A stretch of 64,000 nt of DNA from Syntrophaceae bacterium. GTDB taxonomy: Bacteria; Desulfobacterota; Syntrophia; Syntrophales; Smithellaceae. The notes beneath the pieces are model-generated. The model was not told the DNA's origin, ran no database searches, and saw nothing but the letters and a program-made list of their open reading frames with translations. The DNA lies in NCBI GenBank assembly GCA_009773315.1, contig WRPE01000005.1, forward strand, positions 26,767-90,766, in the 5' to 3' direction. Made by a program: the position numbers and the translations under genes. Below are positions 14,866 through 59,079 of this stretch, in pieces (positions within the stretch are counted from its first letter, which is position 1; each line of letters starts with the position of its first letter).

Positions 14866-14881
14866 TGCCTTGCCTTTCTTA

Positions 14882-20200: not shown

Positions 20201-21324
20201 CAGGGGAAAAGTTTCAGAGAAGTGCAAACCGGCAGGAATGAGTCAAACAGGGTTGTTTTCGGTTGTATCTCCTGCTTCCATATCGCGGAGTCCTTTTCCA
20301 CTTCCACAATAGCGCCGATGATCTCCTCAACCCCTTCGTTTAATAGATCCACCTGGGTTATACGCGCGCTCATCACAGCCGCATCGTCCTTGCTGTAACG
20401 ATCCGCATAGGCCTTAAAATCCTTATGAATGCAGCCGACGAACATGATATTGGGCTCATTCTTACAAAGGGTTTCCATGAAGCCCTGGAGAATGTCTTTC
20501 GAATATGTCGCCTTTTCGAGCGTGAAGCCAAATTCGTCATAGAGAATGGCAACCCCTTTAAATCGTTCCTTGAACTCTTTATTTTTAATCAAATTCCTGA
20601 TGATGGGGATGATATTGCCGGACTGGGCTTGAAAGACCAATCCCCCCATGATCTCCTGGAAAGCTGTGTGAAAGAGGTTTAACGTATCCGTATCGAATTC
20701 CTTTAGGCGCGACCTCAATTGCTTCACCGATATGCCGGGGGCCGTTTTTGCCAAGGCTTTCTCAAAATCCTCGTAAAAATTCCGAACTCCTTTGCCGCCT
20801 TTTTTCTCCCATTCATCGAGAATGCGCAGGACTTCATCGAATTCCGTCTGCAACTGCGCGTCAAGCCCCATCGCACGGCAGGCATCGAATATCGCCTTTA
20901 AGACAACTTCTTCAAAGCGTTTTCCTGAATGATAATCACAAATGACTACCAGATACTGGCCGTCCTTTCGGACATTTCTGAGCATCTTGGCCTTATTGGG
21001 ATCGAGTTTTTCATAATTGCTGTAAAATCCTTTCACCCCCGGATCACCGCTGGAACGGCTGAGGGCATTGGCCAGCATAAGGGAGAGATGGGACTTCCCT
21101 GTTCCATAAGAGCCGCTGAGCAGGTAAAATTTTCGGTCGTTCGGCTGGTACAACCCTTGGCAGATGCGCTCGAAAGCAGCCCGATGCGACTTAGTTGGAC
21201 GATACATGGCCATACGATCGTCATTTTCCTTCGCCTCTTCGTAGGCGCTTTTTAGGTTCACAAAGTTGGCGTACCCAGTCTTTAGCTTTACGACATCCGC
21301 AATTTTCCCCATTTGATTCCTCAT
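17269..21324 (-). CDS. brxC: BREX system P-loop ATPase BrxC
   Basis: 1351 aa; FYLLSGSYGTGKSHLSLMLANALS Walker A, VAILYDEFGFTLE Walker B-like; N-terminal IADVVKLKTGYANFVNLKSAYEEA; adjacent pglZ. Confidence 0.88.
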   Translation of the reverse strand: MRNQMGKIADVVKLKTGYANFVNLKSAYEEAKENDDRMAMYRPTKSHRAAFERICQGLYQPNDRKFYLLSGSYGTGKSHLSLMLANALSRSSGDPGVKGFYSNYEKLDPNKAKMLRNVRKDGQYLVVICDYHSGKRFEEVVLKAIFDACRAMGLDAQLQTEFDEVLRILDEWEKKGGKGVRNFYEDFEKALAKTAPGISVKQLRSRLKEFDTDTLNLFHTAFQEIMGGLVFQAQSGNIIPIIRNLIKNKEFKERFKGVAILYDEFGFTLEKATYSKDILQGFMETLCKNEPNIMFVGCIHKDFKAYADRYSKDDAAVMSARITQVDLLNEGVEEIIGAIVEVEKDSAIWKQEIQPKTTLFDSFLPVCTSLKLFPWLEDMKKIREKVLEDIYGMHPMALACLLKLSSEIGSDARSTFTFFSGDVGGAEGSFADFIAKSDITISGGKLNLYVVDQLFGFFQKELSLKNTELRERQRQLVNGYYASIEALRKVDEGDMFGDLMDERLVILRTILIYELCQIPTNLENLQFGIYCLSAVEKKKMESHLKVLVKTGAIFFRQQSKTYELAAGTGEDPYDLIDRFLTDESLHPKDEIEALLAEAGDPQELEFLYAKQFNLAFSEDKRFQRRFVRPKDIGKKLWKDIQQECEQDLAKDKNRSEGTVIYALCENETDIQIARNAVKDVPNENIAVAIPHAPQPFIDTLLRVKACRYYLPPNEAVKISAQTESRLRDIFENGEDGYRVQLQRILRDISSGEKACWYGKDEQVLVDQPPQPHRPADQLCENLYKKRCRISHPDLNTCHDDKWRTGKNNALKQAVKVLLESDRVMIDNGNPDNHGEKRYLEKVLLKGAGALRMIGKEGTVTYFDCESDPGKISDNYPVLKALCTELKSLPAGKMLALGNFLCDVGKPPYGAGGTAQTLALAHVLRAFGESLRIYTDTTKTVEKNIRTYEDVIQIVADPATKVVVEVFQISEAQRKLVDVVAKAVHAPALKHGEVRSVEKTVELVKTWWRELPKAARIVDLYEKKEQPRLKQLKALLDDAGHIERFDLILHGLPSLYSNEPAGDNLLEKNVQAIGEAFASDVKLFDAGLQSLQNSIAQAVCKVFDATGDVVECEAALDKWYKGLNPNQRDPSKYDEGEAYGLLSQLAKSDDMKTRLYKKLPEAYGFTPVVDWTTVQTADYVAKIKQAKVLIDEAKPDVPIPKIAKKTYEIGEGEKPVIFVPKGAAEMIYTITGDDPKNSETALRVKEEMDLSDFVKEKASVIVKMRARDEHGNLSDVVAIEVVNKAKKYEVAVDRDLFGNKKASFKFPDSREGLVAVLKSLLQQGVAQGLLSIEAREKLVKAIHENLVGKSDS

Positions 21325-21458
21325 AATGTGGCGTTATTAATGACCGTCTTATCCGCGGCGCAATTGGCATTAAATAACACGATATAATATCGAGTACTTA
21401 AAAAATTGCATTACGCCGAACTTACGCCGTAATTGCGCCAATCCCATGCAAAAAACTA

Positions 21459-22262
21459 TTACGGCGATGTCTTGTCTATTCTTGATACAATCTCCCGCAC
21501 AACATAATCGAACGCTGCATCAAGGTCATAACTTGCGCCGTCCGGCAGCAGCGATTCGATATCGCTCGCAAAGCCCGGATGCTTCATTTTCTCCCGGAGG
21601 TTCTTTTCATAGGTCTTGCCATCGACGGTATTGCCTTCAAAATCCATGTAGCGCCGGAAGATTTCCACAACACGTTCAGCGCTTGCTTTCCCTTCCGTAA
21701 GACCCAACCACAAATCTATGAGGTCGCGCCCTTTTCTTCGCTGGTACAAGGCGCGCGTTTTCGTCCCGAGCAACTCCTCAATCGTGTATGTCGTGATCTC
21801 GCAGTTTCCCTGAAACCAGCGGGAATCGACTGAGAAAGGAATCTTCCGGAATCCCTCCACGGAAAAATGCTCCCGCGTATTGATTTCCACTTTCAAGCGC
21901 ATGGAAACCACCGGAGATCCCTCAGATTCCATTCTATAAATCAAAGTCACGGTCCCTTCCGCCTGATTGCGACGGGGTTTCCCCAGGAATTCGCCCAGTA
22001 TGCCTTGAATCTTGTCAATGACCGGTCCGATACCGCCAGGTTCGATCTGAACAAGGTCGATATCCTCCGAGTAACGGCGCGGCGGATTGAAGTGCAGCTT
22101 GTTCAAGGCCGTCCCTCCCCGAAAGGCCAACTTTCCGGCCAGGAATGGCTCCTGAAAGATGGCCACCAGCGCCCTGCTCATGATCAAGTCCTGTTCCACC
22201 TGGGCATGTGAGATCCAGGGCGCCAAACTGCGCCAGCCAACAATGTGCGCCGACGGAATCAT
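21459..22262 (-). CDS. AbiEii/AbiGii nucleotidyltransferase toxin
   Basis: LAFRGGTALNKLHFNPPRRYSEDIDLVQIEPG is diagnostic; start at MIPSAHIVGW gives ATGA overlap with AbiEi stop. Confidence 0.92.
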   Translation of the reverse strand: MIPSAHIVGWRSLAPWISHAQVEQDLIMSRALVAIFQEPFLAGKLAFRGGTALNKLHFNPPRRYSEDIDLVQIEPGGIGPVIDKIQGILGEFLGKPRRNQAEGTVTLIYRMESEGSPVVSMRLKVEINTREHFSVEGFRKIPFSVDSRWFQGNCEITTYTIEELLGTKTRALYQRRKGRDLIDLWLGLTEGKASAERVVEIFRRYMDFEGNTVDGKTYEKNLREKMKHPGFASDIESLLPDGASYDLDAAFDYVVREIVSRIDKTSP

Positions 22263-23074
22263 ATATCCGCCTCCACTTCCGTATTGATCAGCAGTTGCCA
22301 GCGCGGATCTTTTTCTGCGCCCCGAATCGGCAACGAAGGTTCCAGCTTGGCCGGCAGTGGGTTGCGTTCTCTGATCCATTCCCTCAGACCCTCTACCAAT
22401 TCAGAATGACCGGCTCTTTCCAGCAACCATCCCAGCCGCTGTCCATACGCTAGATTGCCGTCGACTTTGACGGCATTTACCAGCTTTAACCGATCCATAC
22501 TTTCCCCAAGTTCCTGCAGGACGGTCAATACACGGTCCAGGCCGCCGATCGCTCTGGCGTAGCGGATCAGATCGATTGCAGTTCCTTCTGGAGTTGAAAC
22601 AGGAATAAAACCGGTTTGAACCTTGGTGGAGACAACAGGGGTCGCCTTAAAGTTGGTCTTGGAAAAAAAGCGGACGGACAGGCTCCTGACTTGAAGCCTG
22701 CGCAGGGGACCGGTCGTGACAACTTGAAATTGCTGCGGCTGTTGATGGGCGGCACCGTGTAAAGCTGCGGCGCTTAGCAAACCGACGTAATAGGGCCGTC
22801 CCATATGGGTCATCAAATCAGAAATGAACCAGTCGGCGGGCAAAACGCGGGTAGAACTGAATTCAAGAGGGATTATAATGTAGAAACCGCTGAGAACTCG
22901 AAGTATTCTTTCTTTCTTCTGCAATCTGGAAACTGCCATCTTGAAGGCAATGTCACTCATTTGCAGGTTCTTGACAGCCTCCTCGCGGGAGAAGAAATAG
23001 AGCCCCTGGGCCTGACGGGCATCGACCCACTCGGCCAACTTGGCAGGAACCGGAGCATCCATCTTTTCGGCCAA
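22259..23074 (-). CDS. AbiEi antitoxin (type IV TA transcriptional regulator)
   Basis: N-terminal wHTH and AbiEi-like domain (FYIIIPLEFSSTRVLPADWFISDLMTHMGRPYYVGLLSAAALHGAAHQQPQ). Confidence 0.9.
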   Translation of the reverse strand: MAEKMDAPVPAKLAEWVDARQAQGLYFFSREEAVKNLQMSDIAFKMAVSRLQKKERILRVLSGFYIIIPLEFSSTRVLPADWFISDLMTHMGRPYYVGLLSAAALHGAAHQQPQQFQVVTTGPLRRLQVRSLSVRFFSKTNFKATPVVSTKVQTGFIPVSTPEGTAIDLIRYARAIGGLDRVLTVLQELGESMDRLKLVNAVKVDGNLAYGQRLGWLLERAGHSELVEGLREWIRERNPLPAKLEPSLPIRGAEKDPRWQLLINTEVEADI

Positions 23075-23192
23075 GGCAAACCTCCATTAAAGTTAATTTT
23101 CGCAGATAGTAGCGGAAGTCGCTACTTTTTGCAAACGATAACTTTGCCATTGAGGCGATTCGGGGATCATTGTTTGCAGCGGGTATTTACTC

Positions 23193-23696
23193 TTATGTCA
23201 GCTTCTTGAACAGTATCCTTAATGCTTTCCCTTCTCGAATGTATTCCGTAAATGTTTTCTCCCAATGCCTGGGATAGAGGTTTTTCTTATGATAACCAGT
23301 GGTCCGGATAGTCTTTTCAATGCTGACTGCCCTTGCTTCAAGATTCATGAAAGCAAGCAGCTTAATGGCGGCCTGATCGCAGGTGCAGAAGATAAGCTCC
23401 TCATCATTCTGAATCAGACAGGCAATGGCTTCCAACTCCCCGGGATCAATACCCAGCCGGGCTTCTTTGGCTTCGTCTCGTACCGTTTGCAAATGCTCCA
23501 CAGCAACATTTTCAATAATGGTGACGCGATCGCTGATAGCGATTTTGGTCCTCGCGCCGTCTCTTTTAAAGTATGATGCCTCAGAAAGGACGGTCTTGGT
23601 TACATGGATTTCATAACCCTTGATGATCCTATCGAACAAGTCGAGGGTATGAAGGTCGATGATGACATCGGCGTCAAGCAGCAGCAATTTTTTCAT
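23193..23696 (-). CDS. PIN-like domain protein (putative toxin)
   Basis: LLLLDADVIIDLHTLDLFD, D/E-rich core (GIDPGELEAIACL), FCTCDQAAIKLL; overlaps upstream XRE/ImmA gene. Confidence 0.72.
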   Translation of the reverse strand: MKKLLLLDADVIIDLHTLDLFDRIIKGYEIHVTKTVLSEASYFKRDGARTKIAISDRVTIIENVAVEHLQTVRDEAKEARLGIDPGELEAIACLIQNDEELIFCTCDQAAIKLLAFMNLEARAVSIEKTIRTTGYHKKNLYPRHWEKTFTEYIREGKALRILFKKLT

Positions 23697-24825
23697 AGTT
23701 TTTTACCGCATACCCGGCAGCAGACAGATAATCATCGATTGCGGACCGATCGATCTCCATATACTCGGCAAACAACCCTCGTGAAATTTTCCCCTCCATC
23801 AGGCAACGGCAAGCAAGAGAAACGTACCGTTGCGGGAACTTCTCCGGCTGATGCTCTTCATACAGCCCCCGGCGCAGGCCTCGATCCATGTTCCGAAATT
23901 CGGCATCACCGAGAATTTTTTCGACCTGGCCTTTCTTAAGTTTTTTGAGATTGACAAGCCTCCACAGAACGGCTTCCGAAGAAACGCCGAACTCTTTCGC
24001 CAGTTCGATGATGTCAACCAACTTCAGTTCCTGATTCACCGCGATTTCCTTTAGAGCAGCAAGCAGATGTTCCTTCGGCAGGAGCAAACTCGCCGCAAAG
24101 CTATCGGCAAATTGCTCCGGCTTCGTTTTACGTGTCCCGTCTCCGATTTCCTCATGCGAGAATATTTTCCACGTGACGATGTGGAAGAGCTCATGGGCGA
24201 GATCGAAATTCCGCCGCCATGGCGCATCATGGAGATTGATGAGGATGCCCACGCCAAGGGCGCTGTCCACGATGCTGGCGCCGGACAAACCTTCTCCCAG
24301 GTCCAGATGAATAACTTTGAAACGAAGCGTGTTCTCCAGGATGTTCAGAAGATTGCAGGCTGGGCGTGATCCCAGGTCAAAGCGCTTATGAATGTCGGCG
24401 CCAAGCTTGTCGGCCGCCGAAAATCCGTTTTCAATGAAGTCATCACTGTCCAGACTGGTGAGGATTTCTTTCCAGCGCCGCTTCAAGCCGAGGAGATTTT
24501 CCAGGCGGCTGTAATTTTCGAGAAAGTTGAGAAATTGACGCTGCTCCTTTTGAACATCGCTGCCTGCAGTTCGCCGCCAGAGGGGAACTGGGTCCGATGG
24601 GATATTGGCTTCGAAGAAATAATCCAGGGGCCTGCTGTAAAGACGGGCCATCAAGATGAGCTCGCCGGCGCTGACGTTCCGAGTTCCCTTTTCGACGGCG
24701 GAGAGGATCTGGTAATGCTTGAAACCGAGTTTCCGCGTTGCTTCCACCAGAGAAAAACCAGCATTTTCGCGCGCCTGAGCAAGCCTTTCGTGAAGATTTT
24801 TACCCTCGGTATTTGAAGAGTTCAT
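23674..24825 (-). CDS. XRE-family HTH + ImmA/IrrE metallopeptidase-domain protein
   Basis: N-terminal HTH (RLAQARENAGFSLVEATRKLGFKHYQILSAVEKGTRNVSAGEL), DLAHELFHIVTW HExxH. Confidence 0.9.
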   Translation of the reverse strand: MNSSNTEGKNLHERLAQARENAGFSLVEATRKLGFKHYQILSAVEKGTRNVSAGELILMARLYSRPLDYFFEANIPSDPVPLWRRTAGSDVQKEQRQFLNFLENYSRLENLLGLKRRWKEILTSLDSDDFIENGFSAADKLGADIHKRFDLGSRPACNLLNILENTLRFKVIHLDLGEGLSGASIVDSALGVGILINLHDAPWRRNFDLAHELFHIVTWKIFSHEEIGDGTRKTKPEQFADSFAASLLLPKEHLLAALKEIAVNQELKLVDIIELAKEFGVSSEAVLWRLVNLKKLKKGQVEKILGDAEFRNMDRGLRRGLYEEHQPEKFPQRYVSLACRCLMEGKISRGLFAEYMEIDRSAIDDYLSAAGYAVKNYEKIAAA

Positions 24826-25160
24826 AACCGCCTCCCGATAAGATTATCTTATGTTTAGTTTTAAATTATTTTCATATTGCATAAGATATTCTCATGGAGA
24901 TGTCAATATCAAATATCACTCTGGGCTTTTGTCGCGGTTGTTTGTCAATTGGATTTCACTCTCGTCCTGATACGAATTGTTTCCATGATCATGCCCTACA
25001 TAGAAAATAACGACTGTCTCCCCATAAATCTTTTCGGTCTTTAGATGAACGATTGGATGAAAAAGAGGCATCACAAATCCTTTGTGTTGTAACTCATGCA
25101 GAGGAGTAATCTTATGCATAAGGCTGCTATGAAGTAATGAAGCTAATTACCCTTCTCATT

Positions 25161-27299
25161 TCATGGTGTTTTGGCTGGCCCACCTAAGATTTGTAGAATC
25201 ACGAACAAGATACCGAAAGCCCCAACACCCCAGAGTGATTTTCTCCAAGGCTTTACAACAAGCCCTACAATACCGAATGAAACCATAAAGCTTAAACATC
25301 CCTGTAAACCATAGCTGTTGGGATGGCGCAATAGCCAATCCCATCGCCAGGCACTATTAATCACGACTAAAAAGATCAGACTCGTAAGTAATGCAATAAT
25401 GATACTGGAAAATTGCCGAATGCGAAGTGCTTTTAGCTCTGCTGTTCGGGCTTTTTCCTGTGCATTATCCTTGGCGATAGTGAGTTCTTCTGCTTCCTTC
25501 TTTTTTGCATTCAATAATTCATATGCTTTGGCGATTTCTATAGAAGTCTCCTGTTTCTGTTGTTCCAGATCTTTTTCAACCCGCCCTTTATCAGTTGTTA
25601 ACAAATCTATTTGTTTTGCCAAAGCTGCGCGTTCTTCAATTAGTGTTTGATTCTCTGCCGAGATGGCTGAATCCACCAGTTCTTGAAACTGTTCATCATT
25701 ATCAACCGCACGTAATCGGTCGATAAGTAAATCATTGGAAAGCAATTTAGCAGCCGTTTCTTCTGGGAAATCCTTGTAGCATGCAAGAAGATTAAGCATT
25801 TTTGAGCAAGCTTTAACAGCACCGCTTCCAATAGTTCTGAATTCCGGTATTGCGAATGTTTCAGCGAATGACTTGTCAAAATCCTGACTTGCAGGGATAA
25901 ATGGACGGAGTATTTGCCACAAGACATTAGGTAAAACAACTGATCCATATGATTTGGATCTTCGGCTTTCATTGCTATCGAAACGATATAACGTATAGTC
26001 ACATGTTAGAAGCAGGGCACCAGCATTAATGGTCGATTTGGTGCTTTTTCTTATTGACCGGACGCAATCAAGGACGGCCACATCATGGATTATAGATCCA
26101 TCAGGTTTTTTCTTATAAATGCTTTCCAAAAACTTGATATAATTCTCCTGAAGTGTGCCTCGCTCAATTAGCCTATCCTCTAAAGGTTTATATTCATCGA
26201 TCCCTTTTCCTTTCAGTAGGAGATCAATATGCTGGTACGGCCGCAAGAAAGAATCGACATCAATACCAGTTTCAACATTTTTCTGATGGTACTTTAGTGC
26301 AATACCTGAGATGTAGGGAGATTTCATGGCTGCTCTGCTTAGTGATTGTGGCCAGTGGTTTTTTTTCAATTCACCAGCATAATAGTTAATCGTATCAATC
26401 GCTTCCTCTAGAGTTCTTTCGTGGTATTTCAAGTAAAATGGAAGCTTATTGTCAGAAATTACTTTAAGTAAATTATGGGAAACTTCCACTTGCGAGTTGA
26501 CATGAATATCAAGGATACCAAAAAGGAAGTTGGTGTCACAGAATATTACGAGTGGACTCAAATTCTCACGATAATTATTGGCAACATCTGGTGAAACCAT
26601 CAAAGAGAAGTAGTTGAAAGCACCATCCGCACACTCCGCAATATATTGTGTCCGATCCGGTTTATTACCTGCTGCAGATAGAAACTCCACAATTGCCGCC
26701 TTCGCAGTAGGCCAGTGCTTGCTATCAAAATGCGACTTCACGGCATCTTTAAGCATAAGCGATAGGCTTTTAGAGTATTCCTCCGGGAGTTCTACTGAAG
26801 AATCGAGAAAAGCTACGGCCTGAATCCCATGGCGCAGAAATGCTTTTGCCAGGTACGCCTGTAAGGCATCCCACGCCGCATCACTAGGAAAATCAACATA
26901 CTTTTTGGAGATCTCCATCATCCATTCACCACGAATCCGTTTTTGTAAACATGACGCCTGTTCAATTTGGGCTTGAACGTTCATTCGCGATTCATCTGTG
27001 AGAACATAATTGGTTCCCAAAGGCTTGTGTATTCGACCATCTTGAATCAACCGATCCAGCGCCTCCTGGATTTGATGATTCGGAGCATCAATCCCAAACA
27101 TCGTTGAGAGGACACCTGCTATATCATTTGCACTGCACAGGCTATCTCCTTCAAATGCAAGGATAGTATGGACAATTAATTCTCTGAGGCTCTCTTCAGG
27201 TGAACGAATATTTGAAATGGCCGCAAAACTACACATCTGTTGGAAATTCGTACTTGCTACCGAGATGCGAATAGTTTCTACATTAGGTTGCGTCATCAA
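25161..27299 (-). CDS. Membrane-anchored PIN-like nuclease with coiled coil
   Basis: 712 aa; VIFCDTNFLFGILD, YHERTLEEAIDTI, SIIHDVAVLDCVRSI, LLLTCDYTLYRFD acidic residues of a PIN fold; coiled coil and C-terminal TM segments. Confidence 0.72.
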   Translation of the reverse strand: MMTQPNVETIRISVASTNFQQMCSFAAISNIRSPEESLRELIVHTILAFEGDSLCSANDIAGVLSTMFGIDAPNHQIQEALDRLIQDGRIHKPLGTNYVLTDESRMNVQAQIEQASCLQKRIRGEWMMEISKKYVDFPSDAAWDALQAYLAKAFLRHGIQAVAFLDSSVELPEEYSKSLSLMLKDAVKSHFDSKHWPTAKAAIVEFLSAAGNKPDRTQYIAECADGAFNYFSLMVSPDVANNYRENLSPLVIFCDTNFLFGILDIHVNSQVEVSHNLLKVISDNKLPFYLKYHERTLEEAIDTINYYAGELKKNHWPQSLSRAAMKSPYISGIALKYHQKNVETGIDVDSFLRPYQHIDLLLKGKGIDEYKPLEDRLIERGTLQENYIKFLESIYKKKPDGSIIHDVAVLDCVRSIRKSTKSTINAGALLLTCDYTLYRFDSNESRRSKSYGSVVLPNVLWQILRPFIPASQDFDKSFAETFAIPEFRTIGSGAVKACSKMLNLLACYKDFPEETAAKLLSNDLLIDRLRAVDNDEQFQELVDSAISAENQTLIEERAALAKQIDLLTTDKGRVEKDLEQQKQETSIEIAKAYELLNAKKKEAEELTIAKDNAQEKARTAELKALRIRQFSSIIIALLTSLIFLVVINSAWRWDWLLRHPNSYGLQGCLSFMVSFGIVGLVVKPWRKSLWGVGAFGILFVILQILGGPAKTP

Positions 27300-27323
27300 G
27301 CGATCCCTCCTTATTCGAAATGT

Positions 27324-30300
27324 TTACAATAATAATGTGGCTATGCGGTCGTATTCCTCCAGGCATTTGCGTTTGGACATGAATTCGCCGAAGGCTTGTT
27401 CTTCTTTGCGTTTCAGGACGGGGAAGGTGTCGAGAATGTAGGCAAATTCGTCACGAGACAGACCATAGAGATGGGCGACGCAGGCGTCAATTTCGGCCCG
27501 TAACTGGGCACGGTCTCCCGTGTCCCTCCGGTCGGGAGTGCGCTCATGGACACCGCAGGCGGTTGACCATTCCGGGGTCAGATTGGCGGCTTCCTCGTAA
27601 AGGCGACGACGGGTTTCCTGTTCGTGCTGGGGGCCATAGGTAAATTTTGCTTTTCCATCTGATGGGTACCAGAAGGCTGCATCCTTCCATCTATCTATTT
27701 GAATTTCCTTCCACAATTCTGAAAAGCGCTCATCTATACAGGTGAGGCGAGCAGTGCGTGCGGTAATTTCTGGATGGACGGGGCTGTTTTGCAGTTGTGG
27801 AAGCGGTAAATCCATATAAGTCGTGCTCAAATGACTGGTCGTTTTGATCCGCGTGAGAAAATCGAATACGAAAGAGTTAACGACACCGCCCCAAAAGCAG
27901 ATCTGTGACAAAGGATAGACGTTTTGAATGATTATATTGTGGCCAGACAACCTCGGACAGTAATGTTCAAACGTCCTAATAGTATATGAATGAGGGGATG
28001 GTTTTGGCAATATAGCGGCAATAAAAGTACGTTCATTCGTATCGGCAGCAACCTCTCTGAAGGCCAATCTGTATCGCTCAGGTGCCAGATCAATCTGGCC
28101 GTCTTTCGTTATTTTGAGAATGTCAATCTTTGACTTCTTTTCAAGCTCCGCAACTCGATTAACGGAATCTTTTGAATAAAAAAGCCGATAGGCTGTTGGT
28201 TTTAAATAATGACTGGGCGCAGCAAAGTCACAATCAAAATGCCAGATCATTTTCCCTTCAAACAGTTGTGGTCCACCTGTTTCACATGGCGAAAGACTTT
28301 CGGTGTGAGAAGTCAAGTCAATTTCCCGTGCCACTGTTAAATTCAAATCTGGACCGATAAGGGGGAACGTTTTGTAGATATTGAGTGAAATTTTTAAGTC
28401 CTGCTGGCTTTTGAATTCCATGACGCTCAGGGTTTCGGGCGAGAATTTGCGGACGTGATCTAACTGCATCTCCAGCGCCCCGGCGTCGATGACGGGCAGG
28501 CGTTCCGGGTCGTGTTCCATGAAGGCGCAGCGGAAGGCCTCTGTTTTACCTCCCTTTTCCGTGCAGAAAAGGATGAACTTGAAGCGCCCGTCCACGGCAG
28601 TGAAAACCGTCGGCCAGCGGTTCTCAAAACCATAGAGGCAACAGATGCGGCTCTCGTTGAAAAAAAGCTCTCGCAACGGCTGACATCCCTGGTCTGTATA
28701 GAGTCCACTGGGCGTTACGATCCCCAGGCAGCCGCCCGGCCTGAGAAGAACGAAGAACCGCTCCAGAAAGAGCTTATAGGTGTTGATGTCCCCTTTGCCC
28801 AGGGCGCGGTAGGCGGCCGGCTGCCGAACATATTCGCTTTGCTGTTCAAAGTCCAGGCAACAGGTCTCCCACTTCCTGCGGATGGGCGGGTGTTCCGCCA
28901 TGAGGTGTTCGGCTACCCGGTTGGCCTCCTGTTTCGTGTAACTGCGGAAGGCACTATCATAGGCGGAGAAGAACTCCTGAGAATTCGGTTTAAGGATATC
29001 CCAGGGCGGATTGCCGACGTCGGCGTCGAAACCACCGTTTTCCTCGTTGAAGACCTCTGGAAACTCCAGCGGCCAATGGAAAAAGTGATGCCTACCCGCA
29101 AGGACTTTCGCCTTATCATCCAGTTCCATTTCGGCGATCGATGCCGGGGCTTCACCCTGTGCCAAACGCAGGAAGAGTCCATGATAATCATCTGGGTTTA
29201 CTGCGCTGTCCATGAGATAGGCTGTGAAGAGATCCGCCAAGGGCAACAACGGGTTGATTCTTTCGCGCCGGGTCTCTTCATGGATCTCCTTCTGGCGATC
29301 CGTATCGTCCTCTGCAATCTGTGTGATGGACATCATGTCTCGGGCGGCTTTTTGAAAGGCCTCCGTCAGTGTTTCAGGAAAAGGTAAGTCCTGCAGTTTC
29401 TTATCTTTCTGAAGCTTCTTTTTGGCATCCTTGCTACGTTCCGGGATTCTCTGCAATTGGGCAAGGTGTCGGATACCGATAAGGCTGTTGCCGCATCGCA
29501 GATGATGATCGAGAAAAGTCAATTTGTGTTCCCGGGCGAAGCAATTGAGCCACAGAGAAAGCTTGGCCAGGTGGACGGCAAGGGGATTCAAATCCACACC
29601 GTAGAGGCAATGTCGGGTTATGAGCCGCCGCCAGTGATTCGGGGCACAGGTCGTCGGCGAGGACATTCCCTCAACATCAGGGATTTCAGCAAGAAGGCTG
29701 ACAATCAGATCGGTAATTTGGTCTGCGGCGTTGACAAGAAAATGGCCGCTTCCCATACCGGGATCGCAGAGTCTGAAGATAAGGACGACTTCCTTGACGA
29801 AGCGTTCCACCAGGGCAATTGCCGACTGGGCTGCCCCACGCCGGACAGCCACATCATGCCCTTCTTGGGTTTCCCGGATAAAGAGATCGAAGCGCTCCCG
29901 GTAGTCCTGGGCGAAACGATCCTGCAGTGGCTGAATGACCGTTTTTCCGTTGAGAAATCGGACCAGACTCTCCGGCGTGTAGTAAGATCCAGTCTGCTTG
30001 CGCTCCAAAGCGGACTCACCAAAATAAACATCGCCTTTTTTAATGAGACTGTCGCTCGTTTGGCGGGCAGTTTCCGAAGCCAGCAGGTTTTCTATGCCTT
30101 TCTTTGTCCGGCGACGAATACGATCCGCATCGGCTAAAGTGACATTAAATTCGAGAATATTCTCGTACATTTCACCTAAGTGACGCACCTCCAGATTGCG
30201 GTAGGGGATGGGGTATTCCTTATCCGGATCTGAATCATAAGGATCTACATAGGCCATCAGATAGAGGGCGCGAGCAAGAAAGTCATTTCTCAGTTGCTGT

Positions 30301-31349
30301 TTCCCCAGAAATTTCTCTTGCTCATCATCAAACAGACCGCCATTATATCCCATGATTCCATACTCCGGATCGCCGTCGTTGACTGCATGGATCAGCCCTT
30401 TGAGGTGTTTCCAGAGATCATATCCTTCATGGTCTGTCCGGATTCCCCACCGGAAACGATGGGCCTCACGGCAGAGGGCCTGAATGGAATGCTTGGCATA
30501 AATCTCCTGCTTTTCCACCTGGGACGGCAGAAGGCTGCGGGACTCGGCGTAGAAGAGGAAAAGGCAACGATAGAGCAACTTGACGGCGCTTGCGAATATT
30601 TCCCCTCTCTCCTCCTCAGTGTATTCTTCACCTTTGCGGGGAGTATCCGCGATGAAACCATTACAAATATACTGGAGGGCTTCGTCAATCTGCTGGAGAA
30701 GCGGGGATTTCACTTTATCCTCGAGGAGCTTCTCAGATGCCGCCATGTCCTTGTCCAGAGGGCAAGTATAAACGCCGAGGTTGCGGGCGTCTTCCTTCCG
30801 TCCATCTTCTTTGTCCCCCGCTTCCGGCGTGAAGGAGTCCATATGGAAGAATGTCTCAAACAGGGCGTACTCTCCTTCATCATTCTGCGCCAAAGCCTCG
30901 GCAAGATTGAGTTCCACATATTCCTCAAATGGCTTGCCGGTGCGGTTTGTATAGAGGCGCCACCTTTCCCCATTCGTCAGGAGCCCCCAAGTCAGCTTGC
31001 GATGCCGCAGTTGCATGATCAATCTCGCCGGCCAGAAACGCCCGACCGAAGTATCATCCATATCCGCCCCCGGTTCTATGAGATAGAGAACTGCGACGCA
31101 GTTGGAATAATTGTAGTCCTCATACAGGGGATAAACGCCGGGATTATCTGTACTGACCGGAGGGACAAAGGAAAGATAACTGAGAGCCTGTTTGATATAG
31201 GTATTCCAGAGAGACTTTAGATTGGTCCTGTCGCAATTCTTCCAGGTATGAGCAAGGGTCGCCATGCGGCCCTGACCGGCGTCGTCCAGTTTTGCTTCGG
31301 AACGGATTTTATCGATAAAAAGTGTGCTGAATAATCCGTGGTTTCTCAT
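27324..31349 (-). CDS. pglX: BREX-type adenine-specific DNA methyltransferase PglX (Eco57I-like)
   Basis: FRLCDPGMGSGHFLVNAADQ motif I, GNPPWDILKPN motif IV, KQTGSYYTPESLVRFL; start MRNHGLFSTLFIDKIRSEA with RBS GAGGAG. Confidence 0.9.
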   Translation of the reverse strand: MRNHGLFSTLFIDKIRSEAKLDDAGQGRMATLAHTWKNCDRTNLKSLWNTYIKQALSYLSFVPPVSTDNPGVYPLYEDYNYSNCVAVLYLIEPGADMDDTSVGRFWPARLIMQLRHRKLTWGLLTNGERWRLYTNRTGKPFEEYVELNLAEALAQNDEGEYALFETFFHMDSFTPEAGDKEDGRKEDARNLGVYTCPLDKDMAASEKLLEDKVKSPLLQQIDEALQYICNGFIADTPRKGEEYTEEERGEIFASAVKLLYRCLFLFYAESRSLLPSQVEKQEIYAKHSIQALCREAHRFRWGIRTDHEGYDLWKHLKGLIHAVNDGDPEYGIMGYNGGLFDDEQEKFLGKQQLRNDFLARALYLMAYVDPYDSDPDKEYPIPYRNLEVRHLGEMYENILEFNVTLADADRIRRRTKKGIENLLASETARQTSDSLIKKGDVYFGESALERKQTGSYYTPESLVRFLNGKTVIQPLQDRFAQDYRERFDLFIRETQEGHDVAVRRGAAQSAIALVERFVKEVVLIFRLCDPGMGSGHFLVNAADQITDLIVSLLAEIPDVEGMSSPTTCAPNHWRRLITRHCLYGVDLNPLAVHLAKLSLWLNCFAREHKLTFLDHHLRCGNSLIGIRHLAQLQRIPERSKDAKKKLQKDKKLQDLPFPETLTEAFQKAARDMMSITQIAEDDTDRQKEIHEETRRERINPLLPLADLFTAYLMDSAVNPDDYHGLFLRLAQGEAPASIAEMELDDKAKVLAGRHHFFHWPLEFPEVFNEENGGFDADVGNPPWDILKPNSQEFFSAYDSAFRSYTKQEANRVAEHLMAEHPPIRRKWETCCLDFEQQSEYVRQPAAYRALGKGDINTYKLFLERFFVLLRPGGCLGIVTPSGLYTDQGCQPLRELFFNESRICCLYGFENRWPTVFTAVDGRFKFILFCTEKGGKTEAFRCAFMEHDPERLPVIDAGALEMQLDHVRKFSPETLSVMEFKSQQDLKISLNIYKTFPLIGPDLNLTVAREIDLTSHTESLSPCETGGPQLFEGKMIWHFDCDFAAPSHYLKPTAYRLFYSKDSVNRVAELEKKSKIDILKITKDGQIDLAPERYRLAFREVAADTNERTFIAAILPKPSPHSYTIRTFEHYCPRLSGHNIIIQNVYPLSQICFWGGVVNSFVFDFLTRIKTTSHLSTTYMDLPLPQLQNSPVHPEITARTARLTCIDERFSELWKEIQIDRWKDAAFWYPSDGKAKFTYGPQHEQETRRRLYEEAANLTPEWSTACGVHERTPDRRDTGDRAQLRAEIDACVAHLYGLSRDEFAYILDTFPVLKRKEEQAFGEFMSKRKCLEEYDRIATLLL

Positions 31350-31356
31350 AATCTCC

Positions 31357-31827
31357 TCAAGTGAGTGCGAGGGTGTCCCGCTGGTCAATGACAAACTGGT
31401 ATTGCTTGAATCGGTCAAACTTCTGCGCTGCAAGGGATCGGTCAAACTGCATGGCGAAAAGCAGGGCGGGCTTTTTGTCCCACGTCTCGATTTGCTGGGC
31501 AAACTGCTCCAGGACACCAGCTTGACCCGTCCAGGTTGCCTTCAAAAATTCCATGCCGGATATGATGAGTATTTTTTTATTATCGCCGCGCTCTGCAAGA
31601 AAACGAAAAAGGTCGTTGATAGAAAAGGTTCCAACATTTTCAGAAAGCGTCTCATCTTCCGCAAAAACATCTAAAACATGCAGATGGGCGGCGACGGCTT
31701 GCCGCGCGAGTTCGGCGGCCCAGGATTCTTGTGATAGATAATCGTGAGTGAAAACGATGCAGGCTCTGCCACGAGGGCGCTTGGGAAGAGATTTTGTCAG
31801 TTCAACAATGTCCACGACTTTATCCAA
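31357..31827 (-). CDS. Small BrxF-like protein of BREX locus
   Basis: 156 aa between DUF4007-like gene and pglX; NKKILIISGMEFLKATW Walker B-like strand; no canonical Walker A seen. Confidence 0.55.
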   Translation of the reverse strand: MDKVVDIVELTKSLPKRPRGRACIVFTHDYLSQESWAAELARQAVAAHLHVLDVFAEDETLSENVGTFSINDLFRFLAERGDNKKILIISGMEFLKATWTGQAGVLEQFAQQIETWDKKPALLFAMQFDRSLAAQKFDRFKQYQFVIDQRDTLALT

Positions 31828-32775
31828 TTAGCCGACCTCCTTTTGCCTGGATTCAGGGCTGGCGCCTTCGTAATACCACTTTAGAAAGGTAAAAGCGGAT
31901 AAGCCGTCCAAGAGACGAACCTGGTCAAGATGGTGTGTACTTTCATATCGCACCCATCCGTTTTGATGCAGCGGCTCTACAGCTTGGCGAAAGGTGGATT
32001 CATCAAAGCCGAATAAAAGGGAAGGCGACCCCTCTGCCTCTGCGATTTCCCGAACCTGCAGAAGGCTCTCCCCGCGCGTGGCGGCATAATCATATATCAT
32101 GGCACTGAGGATGAGAGGCTCTACGCGCAGATGGCGCGTCCGGTATAACCGTCCATCGCTATGCTGGTGAAGGATTTCCAGCTTCTTAAGGTTTCTATTC
32201 AGGTAGGCATCTATGACGAAACGAACCTCCTGCTGTAGGTGCTTGCCGATGGTTCTATCGGTATATTGACCGGAAAGGGTAGTTCTTAAATTAGCCAACC
32301 AGCCGCTTTCGGTTATAGCCTGCTCTGCGGGAAGGATCGAGTTAAAGATTTCGTACCAGACGAGATTCTTGGAGCTACCTGCGCCCCGGTAATGGCACCA
32401 TTGGAGGGTGCCGATCCTTTCCAGAAAGATATCGTGTGCGGCAATCAGTTCACCTGTCTGTGTCAGGGTTTGCATCCCTGGCTTAATCAGTCCCAGCGCA
32501 CAACCGATACTCACGACACTTTCTATCTGGCGGTTAGACAATCCTGTGCTTTCTTGGATTGCCTCACGATAGATCCGCTTCATTGATGGGTTGGACAACA
32601 AAAAGTGCAAAACGCGGGACAACTGATCGAACGCGAAGAGATAACCATTGCTGAGCTGGAGTTTGCGGATTGGTTGAACCATTGAATGCCTTTTGTCGTA
32701 GAGAATGGTTTCTGCCGATAACGAAATTATTGCTTGTTTTTTCCTTGGCTGTCCATGTCCTCCCATAAATCTCAT
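31828..32775 (-). CDS. DUF4007-like protein at head of BREX operon
   Basis: ETILYDKRHSMVQ..., GCALGLIKPGMQTLTQTGELIAAHDIFLERIGTLQWCHYRGAGSSKNLVWYEIFN resembles DUF4007 proteins near DNA modification/defence systems. Confidence 0.65.
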   Translation of the reverse strand: MRFMGGHGQPRKKQAIISLSAETILYDKRHSMVQPIRKLQLSNGYLFAFDQLSRVLHFLLSNPSMKRIYREAIQESTGLSNRQIESVVSIGCALGLIKPGMQTLTQTGELIAAHDIFLERIGTLQWCHYRGAGSSKNLVWYEIFNSILPAEQAITESGWLANLRTTLSGQYTDRTIGKHLQQEVRFVIDAYLNRNLKKLEILHQHSDGRLYRTRHLRVEPLILSAMIYDYAATRGESLLQVREIAEAEGSPSLLFGFDESTFRQAVEPLHQNGWVRYESTHHLDQVRLLDGLSAFTFLKWYYEGASPESRQKEVG

Positions 32776-49812: not shown

Positions 49813-50889
49813 ATGCATGCAGTCATCATGGCCGGCGGAAGAGGAACAAGATTCTGGCCCAGGAGTCGGGAGAAAAAACCAAAACACCTGCTGGATATTG
49901 TCAGCGACCGGACTATTATTCAAGAGACGGTTGACCGGATCAGAGAGTTGATCAAACCCAAAAATATCCTGATCGTCACGGGTAAAAAACATGCGCGTGA
50001 ACTGATGAAACAAATGCCGGAAATCCCCGTGAAAAATATCATCATTGAACCCGTCGGCCGCAATACAGCTGCCTGCATCGGCCTGGCAGCGCTGCATATT
50101 CAAAAGAAAATGAAAGATGATATCATGGTCGTGCTGCCTTCCGATCACGCCATCGGCAACCCTGATAAATATCGATCTGTGATCGCCACGGCGGCCCGGG
50201 CGGCCGAAAGTGAAGACGCGCTGGTCACCATCGGCATTCAACCCACCGGACCACACACCGGCTTCGGCTATCTCGAAGGGGGCAAAGCGGTCGGAAGCGT
50301 TGGAGGCGATGAAGTGCTGCACGTAAAGTCAATCCGGGAAAAGCCGGATCTTGCCCTAGCCCGCAAATTCGTCAAAAGCGGTAGATTTTACTGGAACAGC
50401 GGCATGTTTGTCTGGAAAGCGTCAACCATTCTGCGGGCAATCGAACAGTATTTACCGGATCTGCATTCAGGCTTGATGACGATCAAAGGTTCACTGGGTA
50501 CAGATTCCGAAGCTAAAACCGTATCCAGGGTTTATCTGCGGCAGAAATCCATCTCCATCGATTATGGCGTGATGGAAAAGGCTAAAAACGTCTTCGTCAT
50601 TCCGGCCGAGTTCGGCTGGAGCGATGTGGGCAGTTGGGATGCGCTTTGGGATATCTCGAATAAAGACAATAAGAAGAACGCGCGAACCGGAAGCGGCATG
50701 GTCTTATTTGAAGACACGGAAGGCTCCCTGGTTTACAGTCCGGGCAAACTGGTGGCGTTGGTGGGCATGAAAGACGTCATCGTGGTCGAAACGAAGGACG
50801 CACTTTTGGTCTGCAAGAGAGGACAATCTCAGAATGTCAAGAAAATCGTGGACGTGCTGGAAGCCCTCGGGCAAACTCAGCTTCTCTGA
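49813..50889 (+). CDS. manC: Mannose-1-phosphate guanylyltransferase
   Basis: MHAVIMAGGRGTRFWPRSREKKPKHLLDI, IIEPVGRNTAACIGLAA, FYWNSGMFVWKA, FGWSDVGSWDALW. Confidence 0.93.
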   Translation: MHAVIMAGGRGTRFWPRSREKKPKHLLDIVSDRTIIQETVDRIRELIKPKNILIVTGKKHARELMKQMPEIPVKNIIIEPVGRNTAACIGLAALHIQKKMKDDIMVVLPSDHAIGNPDKYRSVIATAARAAESEDALVTIGIQPTGPHTGFGYLEGGKAVGSVGGDEVLHVKSIREKPDLALARKFVKSGRFYWNSGMFVWKASTILRAIEQYLPDLHSGLMTIKGSLGTDSEAKTVSRVYLRQKSISIDYGVMEKAKNVFVIPAEFGWSDVGSWDALWDISNKDNKKNARTGSGMVLFEDTEGSLVYSPGKLVALVGMKDVIVVETKDALLVCKRGQSQNVKKIVDVLEALGQTQLL

Positions 50890-51200
50890 TCTTCACCCGG
50901 AAAGACTTTCAGATAAACCGGCTTGCCCTTCACAGCAAAAGTTCCTTCCTGTAACGCTTTAATGATGACGTCAAGGCTCGTTCGTTCATCATCAAAAGCG
51001 ATAATCAGAAGGTTCGGCTGTCTGGTTTGATGTTTTCTGACACCATCGATTTTTTTCAGGATAGAACCTATCCTCTCGCTTGCCCCTCAAGAAAAGCACT
51101 CAGGCACGGCCAATTGCACGACGCTTTCCGCCGCTTGGACGCCACTGGCCAAAAACACCAGAGAAATAAACACCAGGAAGGTACTCGATATTTTTTTCAT
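50877..51200 (-). CDS. Candidate selenoprotein: secreted HMA-like domain protein with CxxU (in-frame TGA at codon 38)
   Basis: Manual translation: MKKISSTFLVFISLVFLASGVQAAESVVQLAVPECFS[TGA]GASERIGSILKKIDGVRKHQTRQPNLLIIAFDDERTSLDVIIKALQEGTFAVKGKPVYLKVFPGEDQRS*; RBS GTGGAGAG; HMA-like pattern; SECIS-like hairpin after TGA. Absent from ORF track. Confidence 0.7.
51058..51089 (-). promoter_or_regulatory. Candidate bacterial SECIS element including the TGA codon (51087..51089)
   Basis: Minus strand TGA-GGGGCAAGCGAG-AGGATA-GGTTC-TATCCT: perfect stem, G at loop start, loop ~19 nt from TGA. Confidence 0.6.
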
Positions 51201-56243: not shown

Positions 56244-57413
56244 ATGTCGCAAATAGATTATAACCCGTTGAAAAGGACCGTGAGAATGTGGGGAACTATG
56301 GAACATATCTATGACTATTATGAAGACAAAGATTATTTCTTCTCCCAGGAAATACTGACGCGCTATTTCCTGTCCCTTAAAACAAAGCCATTTGTTATCC
56401 TGACAGGGATCTCCGGCACGGGAAAGACGAAGATTGCCCAAGTCTTCGCGGAATACATGTGCCAAGGGCTTTCTTCTGAGGAAAAAGCAAAGCGCATCGC
56501 CTTTGTACCAGTGCGGCCTGACTGGATGGATAACAAGGGACTTCTGGGATATTATAATCTTCTTGATGAAAAATATCATGCCACACCAGTCTTGCAAATT
56601 CTACTGGAGGCATCAGAACATCAGGACAAGCCATATTTCATTATTCTCGATGAAATGAATCTGGCCAAGGTGGAACAGTATTTCTCCGATTTCCTGAGCA
56701 TCATGGAGAGCCGGACAACTGGAAATCTTTCCGGTGAACCGCTCTGTCTGCATTCGGCTACAAAGGCCGAAACGCCTGACGGGTGGGTCATTCCACAACG
56801 GATCATAATCCCGTCAAATGTCTATTTTACCGGGACCGTCAACGTGGATGAATCCACCTACATGTTCAGCCCGAAGGTTCTGGACCGGGCGAATGTTATC
56901 GAGTTCAACGAAGTGGATCTGGCAAGCTATGAAAAGGGGATTACTTCGGCTGATGGATGCATCCTGAAGGAACAGGATGTCAGAGAAAAACTGCTGCCGA
57001 TGGCGGGGGAAACGCCTTTCTGCAACAAGGCCGATTATACCAGAGCCCAGGAAATGGATAGCGATACCGGTGTGTATCTTTCAAAAATCCTGGAAATTCT
57101 CCATCCCCATCACCTCCATTTCGGCTTTCGCGTCGTCAATGAAATTTCCCGGTTTATCCTGCATGCCAGTGACATGCTCCAGGATTTTAAACTCGAAGAA
57201 ACGCTGGATATCCAGATCCTTCAGAAGATCCTACCCAAGTTTCACGGCACCCAGGCGAAACTGGAAGAACCGCTGGGAAAACTGCTGGCCTTTTGCAGCG
57301 GTGTAGAGTCTGAAGAAATTCCGGAAGATGCCCCGTTTCCCAGATCAGCGCAGAAACTGGCCAGGATGATCCAGAACCTGAAAATTCAAGGCTATGCGAG
57401 CTTTATCGAGTAA
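56244..57413 (+). CDS. McrB-like AAA+ ATPase
   Basis: FVILTGISGTGKTKIAQVFAEYM Walker A, YFIILDEMNLAKVEQYFSDFLSIMESR Walker B, NVDESTYMFSPKVLDRANVIEF. Confidence 0.88.
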   Translation: MSQIDYNPLKRTVRMWGTMEHIYDYYEDKDYFFSQEILTRYFLSLKTKPFVILTGISGTGKTKIAQVFAEYMCQGLSSEEKAKRIAFVPVRPDWMDNKGLLGYYNLLDEKYHATPVLQILLEASEHQDKPYFIILDEMNLAKVEQYFSDFLSIMESRTTGNLSGEPLCLHSATKAETPDGWVIPQRIIIPSNVYFTGTVNVDESTYMFSPKVLDRANVIEFNEVDLASYEKGITSADGCILKEQDVREKLLPMAGETPFCNKADYTRAQEMDSDTGVYLSKILEILHPHHLHFGFRVVNEISRFILHASDMLQDFKLEETLDIQILQKILPKFHGTQAKLEEPLGKLLAFCSGVESEEIPEDAPFPRSAQKLARMIQNLKIQGYASFIE

Positions 57414-57414
57414 T

Positions 57415-59079
57415 ATGGCGATTCTCCTTTATTCATCAGAACTCCGCATGGCCATAGCCGATGATCCCCAGTTTCTGTCCGACGAATCGGCATTATCGTC
57501 AATGGATCATGACGGCACGCCCATCATCCTTCAGGACTGGGAAACCTATTTTGTCAAGTTTTATGGTGAAACCGAGCCCCCGTTCTTTCCGGAACCAGGG
57601 AGATATTACAATCAACGAAAATTTCCAGGTCGGCTGTTTGAGGTAAGTTTTCGCAACGCCGTGGGAATGACGCGCATCGGCCCCATCCCTATCCTTGTTG
57701 TCAGCAGAAAAATCACGGATACGGTTTACGCGGCGATGCTGGATTATATCGCCGGGAAGTACGCCAATCTGGTGTTCAGCTTTGAAAACCCGCTCGGTCA
57801 GCAATACTGTAAGGATAGGCCGGGGCAGGATATCGCCTATGTGGAATATCTTTTCCTCAAAAAATATCTCCTGGACGGATCGCCAAACATAGACAGTATT
57901 GCCGCACTAATCCTGGCCAATCCCCACCGCAGGCTCTATCGGGAATATCGCCGTAACAGCATTGATGCGATCACAAGTATTCCGCCAGCGATGCTAGTCA
58001 ACATGTTCAGTTCACCCGACCGCTTCGCTGTCCTGAAACCCGATCATCCTTTGGTGTCAACAGCCTGCGGACGGGCCATCTTCAACAGAACCGGTCGGAG
58101 GTTGTTTCCCGCCGAGGCCATGGAGGAACGGAAGCATTATACAGTGGATACGAATGAAAACCGGTTCATGAAGCATTTTCTGCAATCGGTTCAGCGCCGT
58201 CTGCAAGGTCTGGCGAAAGCCCTGAAGGGAAAAAGCGGTGGCTATCTCAATCCCGATATTGAAGCATCTCTGGAAAAAATGGACAGGGGACTTATGTTTT
58301 TTTTATCCGATCCCTTCTGGTCCGATGTGGGAACCATGCGCTTCATTCCGGCCGGGTCGCAGGTCTTGCAGCGTCGCGACGGCTACCGCCAGTTGTTCCG
58401 TCTTTATTCTTTGCTTCAGCTTGCCACCCATTGCCATTTCAATAACGATGATTTTCAAAATCTTCTGGAAACCAAAGATACTCCGACGCTTTTTGAATAC
58501 TGGTCCTTTTTCGTTGTTAAGGATGTTCTGGATAAAATAAACAAAATCCGGTCCTGCAGGACGGTTGTATCCACCGATCCTCTTGAACAAAAAATAATTC
58601 AGGGCATCTGCATCGAATATGAAGGCGGAATTTTCCTGTGGTTCAATAGAATCTCTCCAGGGTCTCCCGGGTTCATGCCTTTCGAAAATCCGCGTAATAC
58701 CGTTCCCAATGAAAGCTACTCCCATAACCTGCGACCAGATATCGTCATTTCGAGAGGCAACAACATACTCATATTCGATGCCAAATTCAAAGGCCAGCGG
58801 GACAGTTTTTACGGTGATGAGAGGGGTGACGGAACCATCGGTAAATGGAGGGAAGAGGACATCGACAAGATGCATACCTACCGGGAGGCAATCCGGAATG
58901 TCTCCGGCGCCTATATCCTCTATCCGGGGGAGGAAGCGGCCATTTATTCGGCGCACAATTCGACAGGAATATATGAAGGTGTTGGAGCCTTGCCATTAAA
59001 GCCGGAAGCGGGGGCGCGACCGGTTCAGCGGCACCTCGAAGGTATCGAAAAGATAGTCAAAGAGTTTATTGCTGTATGA
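57415..59079 (+). CDS. DUF2357-domain / McrC-like PD-(D/E)XK nuclease protein
   Basis: Follows McrB-like gene; C-terminal LRPDIVISRGNNILIFDAKFKGQRDSFYGDE...DIDKMHTYREAI nuclease-like motif. Start approximate. Confidence 0.8.
   Translation: MAILLYSSELRMAIADDPQFLSDESALSSMDHDGTPIILQDWETYFVKFYGETEPPFFPEPGRYYNQRKFPGRLFEVSFRNAVGMTRIGPIPILVVSRKITDTVYAAMLDYIAGKYANLVFSFENPLGQQYCKDRPGQDIAYVEYLFLKKYLLDGSPNIDSIAALILANPHRRLYREYRRNSIDAITSIPPAMLVNMFSSPDRFAVLKPDHPLVSTACGRAIFNRTGRRLFPAEAMEERKHYTVDTNENRFMKHFLQSVQRRLQGLAKALKGKSGGYLNPDIEASLEKMDRGLMFFLSDPFWSDVGTMRFIPAGSQVLQRRDGYRQLFRLYSLLQLATHCHFNNDDFQNLLETKDTPTLFEYWSFFVVKDVLDKINKIRSCRTVVSTDPLEQKIIQGICIEYEGGIFLWFNRISPGSPGFMPFENPRNTVPNESYSHNLRPDIVISRGNNILIFDAKFKGQRDSFYGDERGDGTIGKWREEDIDKMHTYREAIRNVSGAYILYPGEEAAIYSAHNSTGIYEGVGALPLKPEAGARPVQRHLEGIEKIVKEFIAV

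Follow-up and report, generated by a model that had tools for sequence, protein, structure and literature searches.

The window, a 64,000-nucleotide stretch of contig WRPE01000005.1 from a Syntrophaceae bacterium, carries on its minus strand a short gene (51200-50876) that almost certainly encodes an exported selenoprotein with a CxxU motif, its internal UGA predicted to be decoded through a SelB-bound hairpin lying immediately downstream. The features of the locus are as follows.

50876-51200, minus strand: predicted selenoprotein gene of 107 residues plus stop, from its translation with TGA read as U and from homologues L018, L019 and L020
51200-51198 and 50878-50876, minus strand: start codon ATG and stop codon TGA, respectively, of that gene
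51129-51200, minus strand: putative signal peptide, about residues 1-24 (MKKISSTFLVFISLVFLASGVQAA), with a positively charged start, a hydrophobic core and an AxA-like end
51087-51089, minus strand: in-frame TGA, the predicted selenocysteine codon at residue 38 (motif C-F-S-U), from the TGAs of homologues and the TGT in paralogues L065 and L066
51058-51074, minus strand: putative SECIS hairpin, with 5' arm AGGATA at 51074-51069 and 3' arm TATCCT at 51063-51058, from conservation of the core pairs and compensatory changes
51064-51068, minus strand: putative SECIS apical loop GGTTC (GGUUC in the RNA), from loop-base conservation in orthologues

The frame from 51200 to 50876 is otherwise open, the single internal TGA being that at 51089-51087. 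With this TGA at codon 38 the whole frame reads MKKISSTFLVFISLVFLASGVQAAESVVQLAVPECFS[TGA]GASERIGSILKKIDGVRKHQTRQPNLLIIAFDDERTSLDVIIKALQEGTFAVKGKPVYLKVFPGEDQRS, and the protein around it runs ...VPECFS[Sec]GASERIGSILKKIDGV..., so written for a selenocysteine whose actual insertion at residue 38 is predicted from the sequence. The signal peptide is followed by an HMA/MerP-like domain; in the signal-peptide region of alignment A1, residues M1, K2, K3 and A23 are invariant, cleavage would probably occur at about residue 24, and a periplasmic location is the likely one for the protein. L018, L019 and L020 are 85-88% identical to the window protein and carry the same TGA. A scan of the locus for terminators and promoters gave nothing convincing.

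The minus-strand sequence from 51089 down to 51058 is 5'-TGA GGGGCAAGCGAG AGGATA GGTTC TATCCT-3', exactly as given in the preliminary description, which had named no strand. The stem of 6-7 bp with a small, G-first loop reported there is present, either as 6 bp closed by the 5-nt loop GGTTC or, with a possible seventh pair between the outer G and C of that loop, as 7 bp with a 3-nt loop; the apical loop lies 18 nt past the TGA. The published bacterial SECIS model calls for a loop of 3-9 nt, an upper stem of 4-16 bp, a UGA-to-loop spacing of 16-37 nt, a G within loop positions 1-2 (mostly G followed by G or U) and a minimum free energy of at most -7.5 kcal/mol (PMC13188914, Fig. 2A). Both forms of the stem and loop, the spacing and the GGUUC loop of the window gene fall within these bounds, and the energy does so barely, at -7.6 against the limit of -7.5 kcal/mol. 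Like the E. coli fdhF-type element, the hairpin lies just 3' of the UGA and has an upper stem of 6-7 bp and a small G[G/U] loop, its AGGUUCU resembling the AGGUCU of fdhF; it differs from bacterial SECIS elements in having no clear bulged U and in sitting at the weak edge of the energy limit. Folding with ViennaRNA, as the preliminary description had proposed, does predict the hairpin (AGGAUAG/CUAUCCU), though with z = -0.02 it is ordinary in comparison with shuffled sequences. Among the 2534 TGA triplets of the window, counted on both strands and in every frame, 14% are followed by a hairpin of at least 6 bp that obeys the SECIS rules for spacing and loop, 5% by one of at least 7 bp, and 10.6% by one with at least 6 bp and an energy of -7.5 kcal/mol or lower. 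Taken alone, the hairpin is not above chance and is weak evidence; it is accepted as real because it is conserved across orthologues, not because of its fold energy.

That conservation is extensive, and hairpin loss in TGA orthologues, which the preliminary description had held would count against it, is not what the alignments contain. In 105 TGA orthologues from across the order, 626 of the 630 cells for the six core pairs are paired, compared with 454 +/- 8.5 (maximum 484) under a null in which each codon is redrawn from the synonymous codons used elsewhere in these genes; complete stems number 101 of 105, against a null mean of 9 and a maximum of 18. Within the family (48 TGA orthologues), pairing holds in 328 of the 336 cells of the 7-bp stem (null 254 +/- 6, maximum 276). 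Kinship of the sequences inflates the pair counts; neither the codon-redrawing control nor the recurrence of compensatory changes, however, rests on that kinship alone. These changes, the covariation that the preliminary description had asked for, occur at four pairs: pair 3 alternates between G-C and A-U, pair 4 between A-U and G-C, pair 5 between U-A and C-G, and pair 6 among A-U, C-G and G-C, with the tree showing 6, 12, 5 and 8 switches of pair type, respectively (31 in total). Selection at the RNA level is visible both in this covariation and in synonymous constraint, with a synonymous difference (pS) among 18 species of the genus of 0.18 in the stem versus 0.68 downstream. The hairpin overlaps a stretch, RIGSIL, that is also conserved as protein, its Arg, Ile and Leu being nearly invariant, yet the codons chosen there are accounted for only by the RNA structure: Ile +6 is ATA in 39 of 39, a codon making up only 21% in the rest of these genes; where codon +6 does vary (GTA, ATG, ATC and others) its partner still pairs; Ile +9 is mostly ATC; and Gly +7 is restricted to GGT and GGG, with GGC and GGA never used, though all four codons occur at Gly +1 of these genes. 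In all 105 orthologues, loop base 2 is G and base 3 is U or G. The stem is broken in all four homologues that lack the TGA; it is kept in L062, which has one extra codon between TGA and stem, and in members with a CxU motif, where the TGA lies one codon further upstream of the hairpin.

The TGA itself is persistent. Of 51 genomes searched from the same family, 50 have a homologue, all 50 with the in-frame TGA, and in a class sample of 156 genomes, all from one order, 106 had a homologue and 103 of these had one in-frame TGA in a match. Two of the three exceptions are matches that start past the Sec site, and the third, in G142, is truly without the TGA. A query with the single protein, with X at the Sec position, returned 13 named relatives from Smithellaceae, Syntrophaceae and Deltaproteobacteria metagenome-assembled genomes. 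Two TGT (Cys) paralogues also exist inside the family (L065 in G029 and L066 in G004), their hairpins decayed, so that the locus combines a TGA kept in orthologues with Cys homologues at the same site, the pattern looked for in a selenoprotein gene. Both paralogues fall within the Sec clade of a tree in which many forks are poorly resolved, and they therefore look like Sec-to-Cys losses. L148 is a further TGA homologue with the hairpin, and L135 (G056) a TGA homologue in which Tyr replaces the first Cys of CxxU (PGYDSU). A phylum sample of 396 genomes yields no more than scattered further members: some TGA forms, with a CxU or a Cys-less motif, and HMA proteins that are clearly CxxC. Among the TGA forms, L198 (G310), L200 (G276) and L201 (G303) are distant HMA-like TGA homologues from other families of the phylum in which Cys is absent before Sec (for example PSGGU and PGVVU).

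The source genome (2.98 Mb in 86 contigs) has the machinery expected for a selenoprotein gene: SelA (604 bits), SelB (363 bits, cut-off 242), SelD (371 bits, with a single in-frame TGA of its own) and a tRNA-Sec with anticodon TCA. Across the class sample, 144 of 156 genomes have SelB, as do 92 of the 93 good ones. The SelD gene (L068, on contig C50) is itself that of a selenoprotein, with a UACK motif, and its TGA is followed by a possible hairpin, GGTC-CGGGT-GACC. Within the genus, pN/pS after the TGA of the window gene and its relatives is about 0.32, with synonymous sites near saturation (pS 0.68), and the region past the TGA is therefore under purifying selection at the protein level. Conservation of TGA and hairpin, together with the Sec machinery, leads to the reading that the UGA encodes selenocysteine and the hairpin is its SECIS element. 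That reading, which the preliminary description had put forward from a single sequence, a weak basis for it, is now supported by conservation, compensatory pairs, codon choice and a Sec-competent genome, and the comparative data make it very probable that this is a genuine, canonical bacterial SECIS in a genuine selenoprotein gene. The element type, a bacterial SECIS, is already known.

In the mechanism we propose, the minus-strand gene would give rise to a small exported selenoprotein: SelB carrying Sec-tRNA(Sec) would bind the hairpin at 51074-51058 (loop GGUUC) just 3' of the UGA, and because of this binding the UGA at 51089-51087 would be decoded as selenocysteine. The product would be a periplasmic protein of the MerP/Atx1 ferredoxin-like fold whose metal/redox site, normally CxxC, is CxxU. 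This site would most likely serve either to trap a soft metal, namely Hg(II), Cu(I) or Ag(I), or as one half of a thiol/selenol redox relay, the other half being a thioredoxin-like protein.

An AF2 model (pLDDT 83) has the order beta-alpha-beta-beta-alpha-beta of HMA/MerP-like domains, with the metal site where helix 1 begins, and the TGA falls where a CxxC site would have its second Cys, giving CxxU. The best Foldseek match of the model is MerP 1osd (TM 0.80 by target); compared with solved structures, the family profile matches CopA with E = 1.8e-8 and MerP with E = 2.4e-5. Pfam gives no match in the window protein. The Atx1/CopZ copper chaperones and the N-terminal domains of CopA (PF00403, HMA) share the fold and the CxxC-type site, and the window protein differs from them in its signal peptide, its Sec and its position below Pfam detection. 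It also resembles the UxxU metal-binding (seleno)protein of NF041115 in that its small HMA-like domain carries Sec at the metal site, and is distinct from it in having CxxU in place of two Sec (UxxU); this model scores 13.4 bits against the window protein (cut-off 95) and matches 5 of 15 members weakly. In the source genome as a whole NF041115 has two weak matches, on one contig and neither above the cut-off, in frames of 759 and 71 aa that probably represent a copper ATPase and a chaperone. The family is a new selenoprotein family, no curated protein family or NCBIfam model tested covering the window protein.

Some distant members, from one family, carry a fused thioredoxin-like domain, and in these HMA scores above Pfam's own cut-off; the fusion suggests a redox link or partner for the window family. 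L149, L155, L166 and L167 (in G091, G092, G086 and G088) combine a C-x-U motif with a C-terminal thioredoxin-like domain, PF14595, and in some of the thioredoxin-fused homologues the thioredoxin site is CxxS- or SxxS-like.

Several other explanations of the hairpin and its TGA have to be weighed. Were the gene a pseudogene disrupted by a nonsense mutation, followed by a meaningless chance hairpin, the ordinary energy and the comparable hairpins after 5-14% of window TGAs would be just what one expects; many families of the order, however, share this TGA and stem, the pairs change in a compensatory manner, and purifying selection acts both before and after the TGA, so that this explanation is scarcely credible and the argument of the preliminary description against a simple nonsense mutation holds. 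The stem might instead be constrained only through encoding RIGSIL, whose Arg, Ile and Leu positions are indeed nearly invariant, but redrawing synonymous codons gives 454 pairs where 626 are observed, Ile +6 and Ile +9 keep to ATA and mostly ATC with pairing preserved in the +6 variants, and the Cys-form homologues are unpaired; a purely peptide-level cause is extremely improbable. A role as transcription terminator, or as a regulatory structure of another kind, is not at all probable either: the hairpin is a short perfect inverted repeat, but it has no U-run, no terminator-like site was found in the scan, and it sits within the coding frame at a near-fixed distance from the TGA, disappearing in homologues without that codon. 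Structures that promote readthrough occur in other systems, and the hairpin could be a general enhancer of this kind, the UGA being read as another amino acid (for example Trp, by a variant code or near-cognate decoding). TGA also serves as a stop here, including at the end of the same gene, homologues and paralogues have Cys at the site, the loop fits the G[G/U] rule for bacterial SECIS elements, and the Sec machinery with its tRNA-Sec is complete, all of which makes such a reading very unlikely.

Accepting selenocysteine at the site, the protein might be a true MerP that passes Hg(II) to MerT and MerA. MerP (TIGR02052; PDB 1osd, 1afi) is its best structural match and is alike in signal peptide, HMA fold, approximate length and a pair of chalcogen residues, spaced three positions apart, where helix 1 begins; TIGR02052 matches all 15 aligned members (best E 1e-12) and the window protein itself with E = 6e-8. 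Its 33.1 bits there are, however, far below the cut-off of 92.55, and the protein departs from MerP in having Sec as the second site residue, the family also having VPGC for the usual GMTC and an extra conserved GKPVYLK tail. MerT is absent from the source genome and from 154 of the 156 genomes of the class sample, and no recurring operon partner or mer-type neighbour was found among the relatives; in most of those examined the gene stands alone beside manC and/or maf-yggS, with a copper-ATPase-like gene within a few kb in two genomes only. A classical role in mercury resistance is therefore unlikely, and that the protein is a true MerP can be given only a small probability, somewhat above that of the alternatives concerning the hairpin.

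Elsewhere in the window, the region 12889-32775 (minus strand) is a defence island with BrxL (440 bits), a PglZ-like protein, an SspC/BrxC-like P-loop protein, a type IIG/DrmMI-like methyltransferase and an SspB/BrxP-like protein, an unusual combination of components resembling BREX, Ssp and DISARM. At 56244-59076 (plus strand), an AAA ATPase matching the candidate defence family PDC-M26A lies beside a gene of 561 aa for which the family search gave no match; the latter may be McrC-like, possibly making the two an McrBC-type restriction pair.

Selenoproteins of related description have been listed before. The GOS survey includes a predicted selenoprotein 'Mercuric transport protein MerP' with 2 sequences (PMC2398784), alike in that Sec is predicted in a mercury-transport-like protein; compared by description only, it may be a relative of the window family, which is order-wide with more than 100 members as against those 2 sequences. 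A 'Putative mercuric transport protein' with C/SxxU, assigned to PF02411, is among predicted selenoproteins, as is the UxxU family NF041115 (PMC13188914); PF02411 is MerT, a membrane protein with a fold other than that of the window protein. The 2006 list of 19 selenoproteins of Syntrophus aciditrophicus has no such protein (PMC1794560), and a search for literature joining Syntrophus, Smithella and selenoprotein found none.

We lean slightly toward the broader view that these genes form one family, order-wide and mostly Sec-based, of exported proteins with the HMA fold (CxxU, alongside CxU variants and fusions to thioredoxin), whose working residue is a selenol, not a second thiol. Such a family would be a metal trap or redox carrier based on selenium that today's curated selenoprotein models lack, and at least some of its Cys forms would be secondary losses. 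The work adds a well-supported selenoprotein family of more than 100 members, which annotation pipelines likely truncate at the UGA. The natural series of TGA with hairpin versus TGT without it is clean material for the study of SECIS evolution. Folds of the copper- and mercury-chaperone type have two cysteines as the norm; the tendency, found throughout the order, to have Sec in place of one of them makes the effect of a selenol on a metallochaperone-like site testable, and anaerobic syntrophic bacteria are the setting in which that question is posed.
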